From the NCBI GenBank assembly GCA_903868595.1, contig CAIPVV010000025.1:62001-126000 (forward strand): 64,000 bases of DNA, in the 5' to 3' direction. Source of the DNA: an uncultured Pseudomonadota bacterium. GTDB lineage: Bacteria > Pseudomonadota > Gammaproteobacteria > Steroidobacterales > Steroidobacteraceae. Positions 46,264 through 51,579 of this stretch are shown piece after piece (within the stretch, counting starts at the first letter, position 1; each line of letters starts with the position of its first letter). The notes under the pieces were generated by a model. It was not told where the DNA came from and ran no database searches. It saw only the letters and a program-made list of their open reading frames with translations. Made by a program: the position numbers and the translations under genes.

Positions 46264-48186
46264 TCAGCTCACCGGGAGGTCCCCGGTGAAGTAGATCAGC
46301 GTGTAGGCCTTGAGCGTGCCATTGGCCAGCGGCACCCCGGAGACCTTGACCTTGGTGCCGACGCTCAGCGCGTTGGTCAGGGTCGTCAGTCCCGCTGCGC
46401 TGCTGATATCCACGGGGCTCACCGTGAGTACGCCGGCGTTGCGGTCCACCTGGTACACCAGGGTCGCCGAGCCGCTGGTCGTCGTGACGGTGAGGGTGGC
46501 CGGCACGGTGCCGCCCAGGATGTTGGCCGTGAACTGGTTGTTCACGAGCCCGGTGGCCACGCTGCCCAGCGGCAGCTTGTGCGGCATCAGCACGACCCAG
46601 GGCGCGTACCAGCCCGTGGCGTTGCTTGCCCCATCACCCCACTGCACGTGGCTGGCGCCCTCCACGTTCACGGCGCCGATCACGCCGCCCAGGTTCACGC
46701 TGCCAGTGGTCGTGGTCACGAAATCCCCGATGGCGGTCGTGCCGCTGGACACCAGCGTGGGGAAGGCGAAGTTCCAGTACTTGAAGCCGGTGATCGCGTT
46801 GCCGCTGGCGTCGCTCCCATTGGCGGCGGTGCTGGCGAGGTAGCCCAGGGACTGGCTGTAGTCGTCGGTGGGCGTGTGGTAGTTGCGCGTGTAGGTGAAG
46901 CCGCTGGTGCTGGCCGCGCTGATGCGGCCCTCGTACATGGCGGACTGGATCTCCACGGTCTGCGCGACCAGTGGCGAGGCCAGGGGGTCCACGACGCTCA
47001 CCTGCACCTTGAAGCCGCGAACCAGCTGGTGGTTGGCCAGGAAGCTCGTGCCGGTGCCCAGCGTCGTGCTGCCGGAGACGAACTCCGTGCTGCCGTTGAC
47101 CAGGATCGGTACCGGGATGCCGGCCTCGTTGGCCACCACGATGCGGCTGTTGGCGGCATCCACGTGCAGTACGTGGCCCTCGGGGCTGACACGGATCTTG
47201 TTGAAGTCAGTGCTGGCCCAGATGCGTGTGGCCACCAGGCTGCCGTTGCTCTGGTAGCGCGCGGCCACGCGCAGCTGCTTGCCACCGATGCTGGCGGACT
47301 GGTGCGAGAAGTCCTTGATCACTTCCACCGTGCCCGCATCCAGGTCCCGGTAGATCGTGCCGTTGGCGGCATCGGCCAGGATCGCAAGCGACTGGGCGGT
47401 GGAGACCGCCACTTCCGGCGTCTGCAGCGGCAGGGCGGGCAGTTCCTTGGTGACGCTGATCGAGCTGTTGTCGCTGGCCACCGACGTCACGACGCCGTAC
47501 AGGTGGCGCAGCACCAAGCGGGTCAGGTCCGCGATGCGATGGTGGCGCACGGGACCCTTGAAGCTCACGGCCCACTTGGTACCGCCCGTGTTGGCGGTGT
47601 GCCCGACGATGAACACCGGGTGGTCGAGCGCGAACTCCAGGTCCAGCGGCGTGCTCTGGCCACTGGTCACGACCAGCGGGCTCTCCAGCTGCACGGTGAT
47701 CGGGCTGGTGAGGCTGCCGGCGCTGCCCTGTGCGCCCTGCACGCGGATGTCGGCGCTGGCGACGGTTGCGCCCGCGGTGCCGGCAAAGCCCGCCTCCGGG
47801 TCGCTGGAGGCGGTCAGCAGGACGTCGCCGGGGTTGGCGCTCAGGGTGAGCACCGCGGCGGTGTAGGTGCCGGCGGGGATCTGCGCCTTGGCCAGCACGT
47901 CGCTGATCTGGTCCAGCTCCGCCAGGTTCAGCAGCGGGGCGTTGCTGGCGGCGGTGTACACCGTGACGTTGCTGCCGCCACCCTGCGGCACGAGCGCGAC
48001 GCCCAGCAGCTTCACGCCGATCGTGGCCCAGTCCTCGGAGGCATCATCGCTCAGGCTCAGGGACACGCTGCCCGGTGCAGCGGTCGGCGTCGGTCCCTGG
48101 GAGGCCGCGCCGCCCCCGCCCCCGCAGGCCGCCAGGCCCGTGAGCGTCAAGCCGAAGAGCGCGCCGTTCAGCGTGTGAGATTTCAT
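46264..48186 (-). CDS. DUF4382-type surface or periplasmic lipoprotein
   Basis: A 640-residue lipoprotein. The signal peptide ends in the lipobox LTGLAAC, followed by a Gly-rich tether. Residues about 45-200 (SVSLSLSDDASEDWATIGVKLLGVALVP with LLNLAELDQISDVLAKAQIPAGTYT) match the DUF4382 pattern. The rest is a run of beta-rich DUF5666-like segments dealing with small ligand-free repeats such as VRVSPEGHVLHVDAANSRIVV-type strands. No catalytic motif is seen. I chose ATG 48186 because the signal peptide starts there. It is downstream of a promoter covered by a ModE-like palindrome, so it may be controlled by molybdate. The function is unknown. Confidence 0.75.
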   Translation of the reverse strand: MKSHTLNGALFGLTLTGLAACGGGGGAASQGPTPTAAPGSVSLSLSDDASEDWATIGVKLLGVALVPQGGGSNVTVYTAASNAPLLNLAELDQISDVLAKAQIPAGTYTAAVLTLSANPGDVLLTASSDPEAGFAGTAGATVASADIRVQGAQGSAGSLTSPITVQLESPLVVTSGQSTPLDLEFALDHPVFIVGHTANTGGTKWAVSFKGPVRHHRIADLTRLVLRHLYGVVTSVASDNSSISVTKELPALPLQTPEVAVSTAQSLAILADAANGTIYRDLDAGTVEVIKDFSHQSASIGGKQLRVAARYQSNGSLVATRIWASTDFNKIRVSPEGHVLHVDAANSRIVVANEAGIPVPILVNGSTEFVSGSTTLGTGTSFLANHQLVRGFKVQVSVVDPLASPLVAQTVEIQSAMYEGRISAASTSGFTYTRNYHTPTDDYSQSLGYLASTAANGSDASGNAITGFKYWNFAFPTLVSSGTTAIGDFVTTTTGSVNLGGVIGAVNVEGASHVQWGDGASNATGWYAPWVVLMPHKLPLGSVATGLVNNQFTANILGGTVPATLTVTTTSGSATLVYQVDRNAGVLTVSPVDISSAAGLTTLTNALSVGTKVKVSGVPLANGTLKAYTLIYFTGDLPVS

Positions 48187-48283
48187 GATCCTGCCCTGTG
48201 TCGACGGGCCCGGGGGGAGGGCCCTGTGCAGGAGTAAACGCAGGGGCGCAGGATCGGTTGACACGCGTGCCCACCGGGCCGGG

Positions 48284-48421
48284 CTAGAACTTGCCGCGCA
48301 CCGTCACCCCGACACGGCTGTTCCCGGCCCGCTTCGGGGTGGACGGGACGAGGACGAGTGTCAGGGCGTTCGTCCCGCAGGGGAGCGCGAGGCAGCGCCT
48401 GCGATAACGGAGGGGGCTCAT
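48284..48421 (-). CDS. 45-residue mini-ORF ending like an outer-membrane beta-barrel
   Basis: ATG 48421 is preceded by TTGGAG at a good distance and lies about 20 bases after the predicted start of a ModE-covered promoter. The product begins MSPLRYRRRC and ends NSRVGVTVRGKF, an alternating strand with a terminal Phe as in outer-membrane barrels. It has no signal peptide and is far too short to be a barrel. It is probably the scar of an internally deleted outer-membrane receptor or porin gene, or else a leader ORF for the lipoprotein 97 bases downstream. Confidence 0.4.
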   Translation of the reverse strand: MSPLRYRRRCLALPCGTNALTLVLVPSTPKRAGNSRVGVTVRGKF

Positions 48422-48443
48422 CGTGCTCCAAGGGGGCTTGGGC

Positions 48444-48471
48444 ATCACTATATATGAATGGATACAGCGAT
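48444..48471. promoter_or_regulatory. ModE-type operator 1
   Basis: ATCACTATAT, an 8-base spacer, then ATACAGCGAT. The arms are inverted copies with 8 of 10 positions matching, in the style of the E. coli ModE box (a CGnTATAT half, a spacer of 6-8, and its complement). It lies between the modE gene and the minus-strand lipoprotein cluster. Confidence 0.65.
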
Positions 48472-48477
48472 AGGCAA
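48449..48477 (-). promoter_or_regulatory. sigma-70 promoter inside the ModE-like operator
   Basis: On the minus strand TTGCCT (48477-48472) and TATATA (48454-48449) are separated by exactly 17 bases. Transcription would start near 48442 and run into the mini-ORF and the lipoprotein gene. The ModE-like palindrome covers the whole spacer and the -10, which is the layout of a repressed promoter. Confidence 0.6.
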
Positions 48478-48524: not shown

Positions 48525-48941
48525 CTAGGGGCCGCGTTTGGGGATCGGGACTGCGACGGCTCGGCGGAGTGCGCGGCGCGTGTCGCCGGAGTCGCCGGCT
48601 GGCGTGCGACTGGGACGGACGCCGGAAAAAGCCTTGATGGTCAACGCGTCGACCGCCGTCTCCAGGCTGCGGTAGGTATCCACCAGCTGGCGCCCAAAGG
48701 CCGTGAGTCTGGCGCCGCCGCCGTCCCGTCCGCCGACACTGAGCGCCACTGCCGCTTCCGTGAAGCCCGTGTTTACGCTATGCAGCAGCAGCCAGGCTCT
48801 TCGGTAGCTCATGCCCAGAGCGCGAGCGGCCGAGGACAGCGATCCGGTTCGCTCGATGGTTTCCAGAAGCACAATCTTGCCGGGCCCGAGGGCGCAGCTC
48901 TCGGAGAAGTCGATTCGAATATGTGCCTGCGGTTTCTGCAT
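48525..48941 (-). CDS. modE: ModE-type molybdate-responsive regulator without TOBE domains
   Basis: A 138-residue winged-helix protein. LGPGKIVLLETIERTGSLSSAARALGMSYRRAWLLLHSVN is the ModE N-terminal DNA-binding domain, with a helix-turn-helix at about 33-55, followed by the VGGRDGGGARLTAFG wing. The C-terminal molybdate-binding TOBE pair of E. coli ModE is absent, so how it senses molybdate is unclear; such short forms are common. It is divergent from modA, with palindromes on both sides of the gene. Confidence 0.85.
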   Translation of the reverse strand: MQKPQAHIRIDFSESCALGPGKIVLLETIERTGSLSSAARALGMSYRRAWLLLHSVNTGFTEAAVALSVGGRDGGGARLTAFGRQLVDTYRSLETAVDALTIKAFSGVRPSRTPAGDSGDTRRALRRAVAVPIPKRGP

Positions 48942-48985: not shown

Positions 48986-49013
48986 TCGGAAATATCTAGT
49001 AAGATATAGCGAA
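48986..49013. promoter_or_regulatory. ModE-type operator 2, upstream of modA
   Basis: TCGGAAATAT, an 8-base spacer, then ATATAGCGAA. The right arm is close to the ModE half-site and the left arm is degenerate (6 of 10 positions inverted-matching). The spacer length is the same as in operator 1. It lies in the modE/modA divergent region, 23 bases before the modA ATG. Confidence 0.55.
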
Positions 49014-49036
49014 CGCAGTGGCCTCACTTGGATTGT

Positions 49037-49801
49037 ATGTTGCGCAAGTCCCTGGGCATTGCCCTGTTGGTCCTGTCGATGCCGGGCGGCCCGGCTTGGG
49101 CGGCAGACAGGGTGCTGACCGTGTTCGCCGCGGCATCGCTCACCGATGTCCTGCGGCAGGTGGGTGATGCCTACACCAGTGACACCCGGCAGACGGTGCG
49201 CTTTTCCTTTGCCGCCAGTTCCACGCTGGCCCGGCAGGTCGAAGCCGGCTCGCCGGCGGACGTTTTCGTCTCGGCCGACGAGGCGTGGATGGATTACTTG
49301 CAGTCGCGCCACCTCCTGGCGGCGGTGCCACCCATCGATATCGCGGGTAATGAACTGGTGCTCATCGCGCCGGCCGACAGCACCGTCTCCTTAAGCATCA
49401 CCGGCGGGTTCCCGATTGCCGCTGCGCTGGGGTCCGCCGGACGCCTCGCCATCGGTGACCCCGTATCGGTCCCGGCGGGCAAGTACGCCCGGGAGGCGCT
49501 TACCCATCTGGGCGTCTGGCGAACGGTCGAGGCGCGCACGGTAGCCGCGGACAACGTACGCACGGCGCTTAATTTCGTCGCGCGCGGGGAGGCCCCGTTG
49601 GGAATCGTCTACGCGACCGATGCGCGCAGCGAGCCGCGGGTACGGGTGGTGGACGTGTTCCCGGAGGCAGCGCACCAGCCGATTACCTACCCCGCGGCAA
49701 TGGTGCGGGGCGCCAACGCGCATGCCGCTGATTTCTTGAAGTTCCTGCAGGGCGCCAGGGCGAGGCGCATTTTCGAGCGGGCTGGCTTTACGAGGCCCTG
49801 A
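49037..49801 (+). CDS. modA: molybdate ABC transporter substrate-binding protein
   Basis: A roughly 254-residue periplasmic binding protein with a signal peptide cleaved near AWAA. ModA landmarks are VFAAASLTDVLRQV, FSFAASSTLARQVEAGSPADVFVSAD, and GNELVLIAP. The C-terminal part has NFVARGEAPLGIVYATDA. It captures molybdate or tungstate. ATG 49037 is preferred to the upstream TTG 49028. The expected modB and modC do not follow; the next gene is an unrelated cytochrome. Confidence 0.9.
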   Translation: MLRKSLGIALLVLSMPGGPAWAADRVLTVFAAASLTDVLRQVGDAYTSDTRQTVRFSFAASSTLARQVEAGSPADVFVSADEAWMDYLQSRHLLAAVPPIDIAGNELVLIAPADSTVSLSITGGFPIAAALGSAGRLAIGDPVSVPAGKYAREALTHLGVWRTVEARTVAADNVRTALNFVARGEAPLGIVYATDARSEPRVRVVDVFPEAAHQPITYPAAMVRGANAHAADFLKFLQGARARRIFERAGFTRP

Positions 49802-49863
49802 ATTGTCGGCACTTGGGGTACATTTGCCGCGCTAAAGAACAATCACCGAAGGTGGGATCCAGC

Positions 49864-51579
49864 ATGTTCAAACACTATGCCGCCGCGGCACTGCTCGCGG
49901 CCGTCATTTCAGCCCCGTCGTTTGGCGCCGACGCCAACGCCGGCAAGACGGTGTTCCGTGCGCAGTGCGCGCTGTGCCACAGCGCCCAGAAGGATGACGG
50001 CGGCGGCGCGCAGGGACCGGCGCTGATCGGCGTGTTCGGCCGCCCGGCGGCCGCGAACCCCGCCTTCTCCTACACCAAGCCGCTGAAGGCCTCCAAGCTC
50101 GTGTGGAACGCGGCCACGCTGGATCGCTTCCTGGCCTCCCCGACCACCGTGGTGCCGGGGTCGGCCATGGTCGTGGCGATCGCCGACAAGAACGACCGCG
50201 AAAACGTGGTCGCCTACTTCCAGGCGCTGAAGGACGGCAGCTTCAAGGAAGCGCCGCCGCCGGAGGGTTTCCGCCCACCACCGTCCACGGCTGCGGCAGG
50301 CCCGGCGAAGGGCGAGGCCGACTGGAAGAAGGACGTGCCGGGCCGCAAGCACCGCATTGACCTCGCGACGCTGCCGGCGCCCTATGACACGCCGTCCGCC
50401 AGCAATTTCCCCAAGTTCATCGACAAGCCGGCCAATGCGAAGCTGTCAGTACCGGCGGGCTTCAAGGTCGACGTCTGGGCCAGGGACCTGCCGGGCGCCC
50501 GGGCGATGCGCGTGGCTCCCAATGGCGATGTCTTCCTGAGCGAGACGCAGACGGGTCGCATCGTGGTGCTGCGCCCGTCCGCGGATGGCAGCAAGGCGGA
50601 GAAGGTCACCACCTTCGCGCAGGGCCTGCTGCTGCCCTTCGGCATCCAGTTCTATCCAAGCGGCAGCGATCCCAAGTGGCTGTATGTCGCCGAGACCAAC
50701 CGCGTCGTGCGCTACGCCTACAAGGTGGGGCAGGCCGTGGCAACGGGCGTACCGGAAGTCGTGGTGCCGCAGCTGGCGCCGACGGCCGGTGGCGGACACT
50801 TCACGCGGGACATCGCCTTCTCGCTCGACGGCAAGCGGATGTTCGTGTCGGTAGGCTCCTCCTCCAATGTCGCCGAGGACATGCCGAAGAAGACCGCGGC
50901 GGAGGTCAAGGCCTGGGAGGCCGACCATGCGCTGGGTTCCACCTGGGGCGGGGAAGAGCGCCGTGCCGACGTGCTCGTCTATGAAGTGGGCATGGACAAG
51001 CCGGGCAAGGTCTTTGCGACCGGTATCCGCAACTGCGTGGGTCTCACGATCCAGCCGGTGCAGGGGGACCTGTGGTGCACGACCAATGAGCGCGACATGC
51101 TGGGCGATGACCTGGTGCCCGACTACTCCACGCGCGTGAAGGAAGGGGCCTTCTACGGCTGGCCGTGGATGTACATGGGCAAGTACGAGGACCCGCGGCA
51201 CGCGGGCGAGCGTCCGGACTTGGTGGGCAAGGTCACCGCGCCGGACGTGCCCTACCAGGCGCACTCGGCCGCGTTGAACCTGGCCTTCTATACCGCCACC
51301 AGCGGCGCCTCGGCCTTCCCCAAGGGATACGTGGGTGACGGCTTCGCCGTGCTGCACGGTTCCTGGAACCGCGCCTTCCGCACCGGCCACAAGGTCGTGC
51401 GCGTTCGCATGAAGGACGGCGCGCCCACGGGCGAGTACGAGGACTTCATGGTCGGCATGATCGCCGATGACGGCAACGCCTGGGGTCGCCCGGTTGGTGC
51501 GGCGGTGGCGAAGGATGGATCGCTGCTCATCAGCGACGATGGCGCGAACCTCATTTACCGCATCTCCTACAAGCCGTAA
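49864..51579 (+). CDS. exported cytochrome c fused to sorbosone/glucose-dehydrogenase-like beta-propeller
   Basis: A 571-residue exported protein. A signal peptide (to about residue 22) is followed by a class I cytochrome c domain with CALCH at 35-39. An Ala/Pro linker (about 135-165) leads to a six-bladed propeller of the PQQ sugar dehydrogenase (sorbosone dehydrogenase) type: GFKVDVWARDLPGARAM, FAQGLLLPFGIQFYP, FVSVGSSSN, and HGSWNRAFRTGHKVVR near the end. The fusion suggests a dehydrogenase that passes electrons directly to its own heme. Whether it binds PQQ and which sugar it oxidises is not visible. Confidence 0.85.
   Translation: MFKHYAAAALLAAVISAPSFGADANAGKTVFRAQCALCHSAQKDDGGGAQGPALIGVFGRPAAANPAFSYTKPLKASKLVWNAATLDRFLASPTTVVPGSAMVVAIADKNDRENVVAYFQALKDGSFKEAPPPEGFRPPPSTAAAGPAKGEADWKKDVPGRKHRIDLATLPAPYDTPSASNFPKFIDKPANAKLSVPAGFKVDVWARDLPGARAMRVAPNGDVFLSETQTGRIVVLRPSADGSKAEKVTTFAQGLLLPFGIQFYPSGSDPKWLYVAETNRVVRYAYKVGQAVATGVPEVVVPQLAPTAGGGHFTRDIAFSLDGKRMFVSVGSSSNVAEDMPKKTAAEVKAWEADHALGSTWGGEERRADVLVYEVGMDKPGKVFATGIRNCVGLTIQPVQGDLWCTTNERDMLGDDLVPDYSTRVKEGAFYGWPWMYMGKYEDPRHAGERPDLVGKVTAPDVPYQAHSAALNLAFYTATSGASAFPKGYVGDGFAVLHGSWNRAFRTGHKVVRVRMKDGAPTGEYEDFMVGMIADDGNAWGRPVGAAVAKDGSLLISDDGANLIYRISYKP

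Follow-up and report, generated by a model that had tools for sequence, protein, structure and literature searches.

In the genome studied here, a ModE-controlled receptor gene located behind modE has probably collapsed to an in-frame relic of 45 codons, and the DUF4382 lipoprotein gene that follows would be a separate unit with its own promoter. The window, by which we mean the whole 64,000-nucleotide stretch of DNA that was analysed, contains the following features in this region.

46264-48186, minus strand: DUF4382 lipoprotein gene, 640 residues (Pfam, E = 1.7e-8), not a conserved ModE target and probably a separate transcription unit
48237-48263, minus strand: putative ECF-sigma-type promoter of the lipoprotein gene, TGTCAACC-N15-CGTT, with a motif conserved in homologues
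48284-48421, minus strand: 45-codon open reading frame (ORF), read from its tail signature, GC3 and position as what probably remains, in frame, of a gene for an outer-membrane receptor
48444-48471, minus strand: ModE box with the minus-strand reading ATCGCTGTAT-N8-ATATAGTGAT, matching the printed consensus
48449-48477, minus strand: weak promoter resembling the sigma-70 type, TTGCCT-17-TATATA, lying under the box and read from the sequence
48525-48941, minus strand: gene of a modE-type regulator, 138 residues, with the DNA-binding domain only, assigned by structure and profile matches
48988-49011, unstranded: second ModE box, between the divergent modE and modA, assigned by consensus match
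49028-49801, plus strand: modA, molybdate-binding protein (TIGR01256, 194 bits)
49813-51579, plus strand: gene of a cytochrome c-GSDH protein behind modA, with homologues by ModE boxes in genomes G033, G072 and G087

The inverted repeat ATCACTATAT-N8-ATACAGCGAT at 48444-48471, which occurs as a single exact copy in the whole 3.03-Mb genome, was likened to a ModE box in an earlier note on this DNA. The ModE consensus has been printed as atCGnTATATA-N6-TATATAnCGat (PMC545781), and by its letters the repeat is the same element. The pattern CGNTATAT-N8-ATATANCG with up to three mismatches is found at two sites in the window, 48444-48471 and 48988-49011, compared to 0.13 expected by chance, and a ModE-type regulator gene lies by a molybdate transport gene, which bears out the likeness. 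The minus-strand promoter that the earlier note placed inside the repeat can also be read directly, with TTGCCT at 48477-48472, a 17-base spacer and TATATA at 48454-48449; it is weak, matching 8 of 12 consensus bases, and falls below the threshold of a consensus scan. An Rfam search of the whole window returned RNase P only and found no molybdenum-cofactor riboswitch. Within the genus, a DNA search with the intergenic stretch retrieved only a 33-base match of 85% in G001, located in an unrelated gene region.

The modE gene, which ends 53 bases upstream of the 48444-48471 box, had been missed in the earlier note, and so had the second box and the divergent modA. The closest solved structure to the modE product is 2ijl (E = 4e-23), and the product scores 75.7 bits against TIGR00637, which is under the model cut-off of 98.5. 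On its content of modE, modA and two ModE boxes, we take this to be a molybdate locus. Three genomes from a different genus carry, beside a ModE box, homologues of the cytochrome c-GSDH protein encoded behind modA (63-70% identical; L121, L123 and L127), which makes its gene a recurrent, unexplained ModE-associated one.

A search of relatives for a full-length TonB receptor behind the box, as the earlier note had proposed, found one in the same-genus genome G003, in which modE is followed by a zero-mismatch ModE box and then by a full-length TonB-dependent receptor with both domains (Plug, 5.9e-20; barrel, 3.1e-43). G003 is the only same-genus genome with an intact receptor at this position, and in no genome did the search find modE, an intact receptor and DUF4382 in exactly this order. 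Gene order is variable, and other genes adjoin modE in G005 and G007. In G007, an orthologue of the G003 receptor (76-78% identical) is located behind a box, in pieces on two contigs, and G099, which belongs to another genus, has a relative behind a perfect ModE box. Including these, ModE-boxed TonB-dependent receptors are present in ten genomes (G003, G007, G074, G170, G061, G106, G099, G028, G033 and G171), and the deleted receptor that the earlier note had offered as one of its two readings fits both G003 and this wider set.

Across the family, the ModE pattern with at most one mismatch occurs at 95 sites in 61 of 150 genomes (tallied from tables), compared to 21 sites for a reversed control pattern, approximately half of these being true boxes displaced by a single base. 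Approximately 50 boxes were inspected, and the adjoining genes encode TonB-dependent receptors, porins of the Alginate_exp, OprD and Porin_4 types, molybdate-type binding proteins and the cytochrome c-GSDH protein. ModE boxes in this Steroidobacteraceae-like family thereby appear to reach outer-membrane receptors, porins and the cytochrome c-GSDH protein. The subfamily of boxed receptors is not represented in the window genome (G000), a 61-contig assembly that is 94% complete, and the gene may be missing from the assembly only. When up to three mismatches are allowed, this genome yields, besides the present box, the modA site, two weak matches and no other convincing box.

Further genes were seen beside ModE boxes in the relatives. 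In G005 (L029, 1581-3399), a ModE box is followed, in the direction away from modE, by the gene of a small secreted protein and then by that of a di-haem oxidoreductase (DHOR); small proteins resembling the secreted one are encoded near modA in G007 (L027) and, in G171 (L130), following a perfect box. Thioredoxin-like proteins adjoin perfect ModE boxes in two genera (L119 in G009, and L129 in G171, the latter accompanied by a DsbD-like domain). In addition, the G003 receptor frame runs into a TAG just ahead of a typical last strand (L028, 11590-11650), beside a transposase-like gene; this receptor may be decaying as well, or the assembly may be wrong here.

The 45-codon ORF starts at an ATG at 48421, 22 bases past the ModE box and preceded by GGAGC, in agreement with the start and ribosome binding site described earlier at about 20 bases past the predicted start of transcription. 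Its C-terminal end, SRVGVTVRGKF, had been compared to the last strand of an outer-membrane barrel, and the comparison holds: with a scoring matrix built from receptor tails, from which the ORF itself was left out, it has the highest score among the 1,462 stop-anchored tails of the window (19.0 bits, with the next at 9.6) and is also the best terminal-strand match in a larger background of 18,174. The GC3 in the ORF frame is 0.91, compared to 0.60-0.62 at the other positions (base-shuffle p = 0.0024), and it is even along the ORF (0.87-0.93). The ORF has no match in Pfam and hence neither a Plug nor a barrel domain, so that, as judged from its sequence, it can only be a receptor remnant and not a member of the TonB-dependent receptor family. 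It is not matched by a profile built on the C-terminal 75 residues of the boxed subfamily. Scored over its full length against receptor tails, the ORF ranks 2 of 752 when compared with the closest subfamily and 18 of 752 when compared with all receptors, and these scores overlap chance; its distinctiveness is confined to the last strand, and the remainder has no measurable receptor similarity. Because the whole-ORF similarity is not significant, we infer that the ORF derives from a receptor rather than read this from an alignment. Alignments of the ORF with receptor tails made by eye (NAL..TL.L..TP..GNS) are attractive, but they are no better than those of stop-anchored control segments. A frameshifted receptor was also considered, and the even GC3 along one frame favours an in-frame remnant instead.

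The 640-residue DUF4382-type lipoprotein reported earlier after the ORF was confirmed by its Pfam match. Between the ORF and this gene lies the putative ECF-type promoter (48263-48237), which the earlier note had missed. Homologues of the lipoprotein were found at 69 loci in a named-species collection, nearly all of them in gammaproteobacterial or other proteobacterial metagenome assemblies. GTCAAC together with CG[C/T] at ECF-promoter spacing is present upstream of 46 of 62 homologues, compared to 0.4 in base-shuffled upstream regions, where the 62 are the homologues with a resolvable start, include the window and contain about four repeats from genomes that occur in two collections, and where the motif was first noticed on five of those later counted. 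It is mostly located 70-120 bases before the homologue start. No description of the ECF motif TGTCAAC was found in the literature, and DUF4382 is named in a single paper, according to a word search that had most subscription papers outside its reach. The form GTCAACC-N15-CGTT precedes not only the lipoprotein gene but also, at other places in the genome, the genes of a 461-residue protein and of a pair of related small secreted proteins (L244, L246 and L248), which suggests a regulon of an ECF sigma factor, with the pattern being short and having 16 matches in the genome, about half of them inside genes.

Because no ModE box (up to two mismatches), modE or modA was found in the 69 homologous lipoprotein loci (594 kb), a molybdate-regulated lipoprotein is not supported, and the lipoprotein is not a conserved molybdate target. 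The earlier proposal of a molybdate-regulated outer-envelope locus is therefore upheld in its ModE box and adjacent modE and modA, while the molybdate role assigned to the lipoprotein falls away. At most, the lipoprotein gene would receive read-through from the ModE promoter. Such read-through is the core of an alternative in which the receptor was lost and its promoter captured the lipoprotein gene, placing it under molybdate regulation in this lineage only. The ORF and the lipoprotein gene do lie on the same strand, 98 bases apart from stop to start, and a scan found no terminator-like site between them; however, the lipoprotein gene retains its conserved ECF-type promoter, the homologous loci have no ModE link and a full-length copy of the lipoprotein is absent from the other same-genus genomes, all of which makes this alternative unlikely.

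Another alternative, the second of the two readings in the earlier note, is that the ORF encodes a genuine mini-protein or leader peptide under molybdate control. The good start with its ribosome binding site, the coding-like GC3 throughout the frame and the ModE-covered promoter directly ahead would suit such a product, but we regard it as quite unlikely, given a search of 217 family genomes that returned only noise, the lack of a domain and a tail of the receptor last-strand type. A further alternative is that the frame stands open by chance in intergenic DNA rich in GC, and that the ModE box ahead of it serves either no gene or only the distant lipoprotein. This agrees with the non-significant whole-ORF similarity, but it is very unlikely, as both the codon-position pattern and the first-ranked tail would have to be accidents. 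The tail signature, the GC3, the lack of a homologue and the position together favour an in-frame receptor relic.

According to this relic reading, the site would be a ModE-repressed promoter, and its original gene would have encoded an outer-membrane TonB-dependent receptor directly behind modE. Molybdate-bound ModE would sit on the -10 element and spacer, closing the promoter, whereas molybdate shortage would lead to the receptor and ModA being made together. The receptor presumably imported molybdate or a molybdate carrier. Its gene would subsequently have been lost by an internal deletion that left 45 in-frame codons, consisting of the start region and the last barrel strand, so that the ModE promoter would now drive the relic, and the lipoprotein gene would be governed separately by its ECF-sigma-type promoter.

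To our knowledge, the outer-membrane passage of molybdate has been little studied. We tentatively suggest, as a possibility that we hold at somewhat less than even chances, that ModE controls a dedicated outer-membrane uptake step for molybdate, or for a molybdate carrier, in this gammaproteobacterial family through boxed TonB-dependent receptors and porins of the three types named above, and that some lineages, like this one, lost the receptor but kept the switch. Word searches, which had most subscription papers outside their reach, found no literature linking ModE to TonB-dependent receptors. The recurrent ModE boxes ahead of these receptors and porins would define a candidate gene set for the outer-membrane passage of molybdate. 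The locus also offers a caution, since a regulatory box is poor evidence on the next large gene, which in the case of the DUF4382 gene has a conserved promoter of its own.

Compared to TonB-dependent receptors (PF00593/PF07715), the ORF shares the last-strand signature, but it would be a 45-codon remnant only, with neither plug nor barrel. In Pseudomonas aeruginosa, molybdate is delivered at the outer membrane by secreted ModA and IcmP in a manner dependent on the type VI secretion system (mentioned in PMC11734730); an outer-membrane step in molybdate uptake would be common to both systems, but that account needs type VI secretion and involves no ModE-boxed receptor. Single-domain ModE proteins (structure 2ijl; Desulfovibrio, PMC545781) have only the DNA-binding domain and lack the C-terminal domains that bind molybdate, as here; in Desulfovibrio, however, the protein was paired with another motif, CGGTCACG-N14-CGTGACCG, whereas here the E. 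coli-type box is kept. The ModE-controlled molybdate transport promoters with E. coli-type boxes (PMC545781) have the same box, the same regulator type, a box over the promoter and modA as a neighbour. The present locus differs from them in that its ModE has the DNA-binding domain only, and in that one of its two boxes is located downstream of modE, at a position occupied in a relative by the gene of an outer-membrane receptor.
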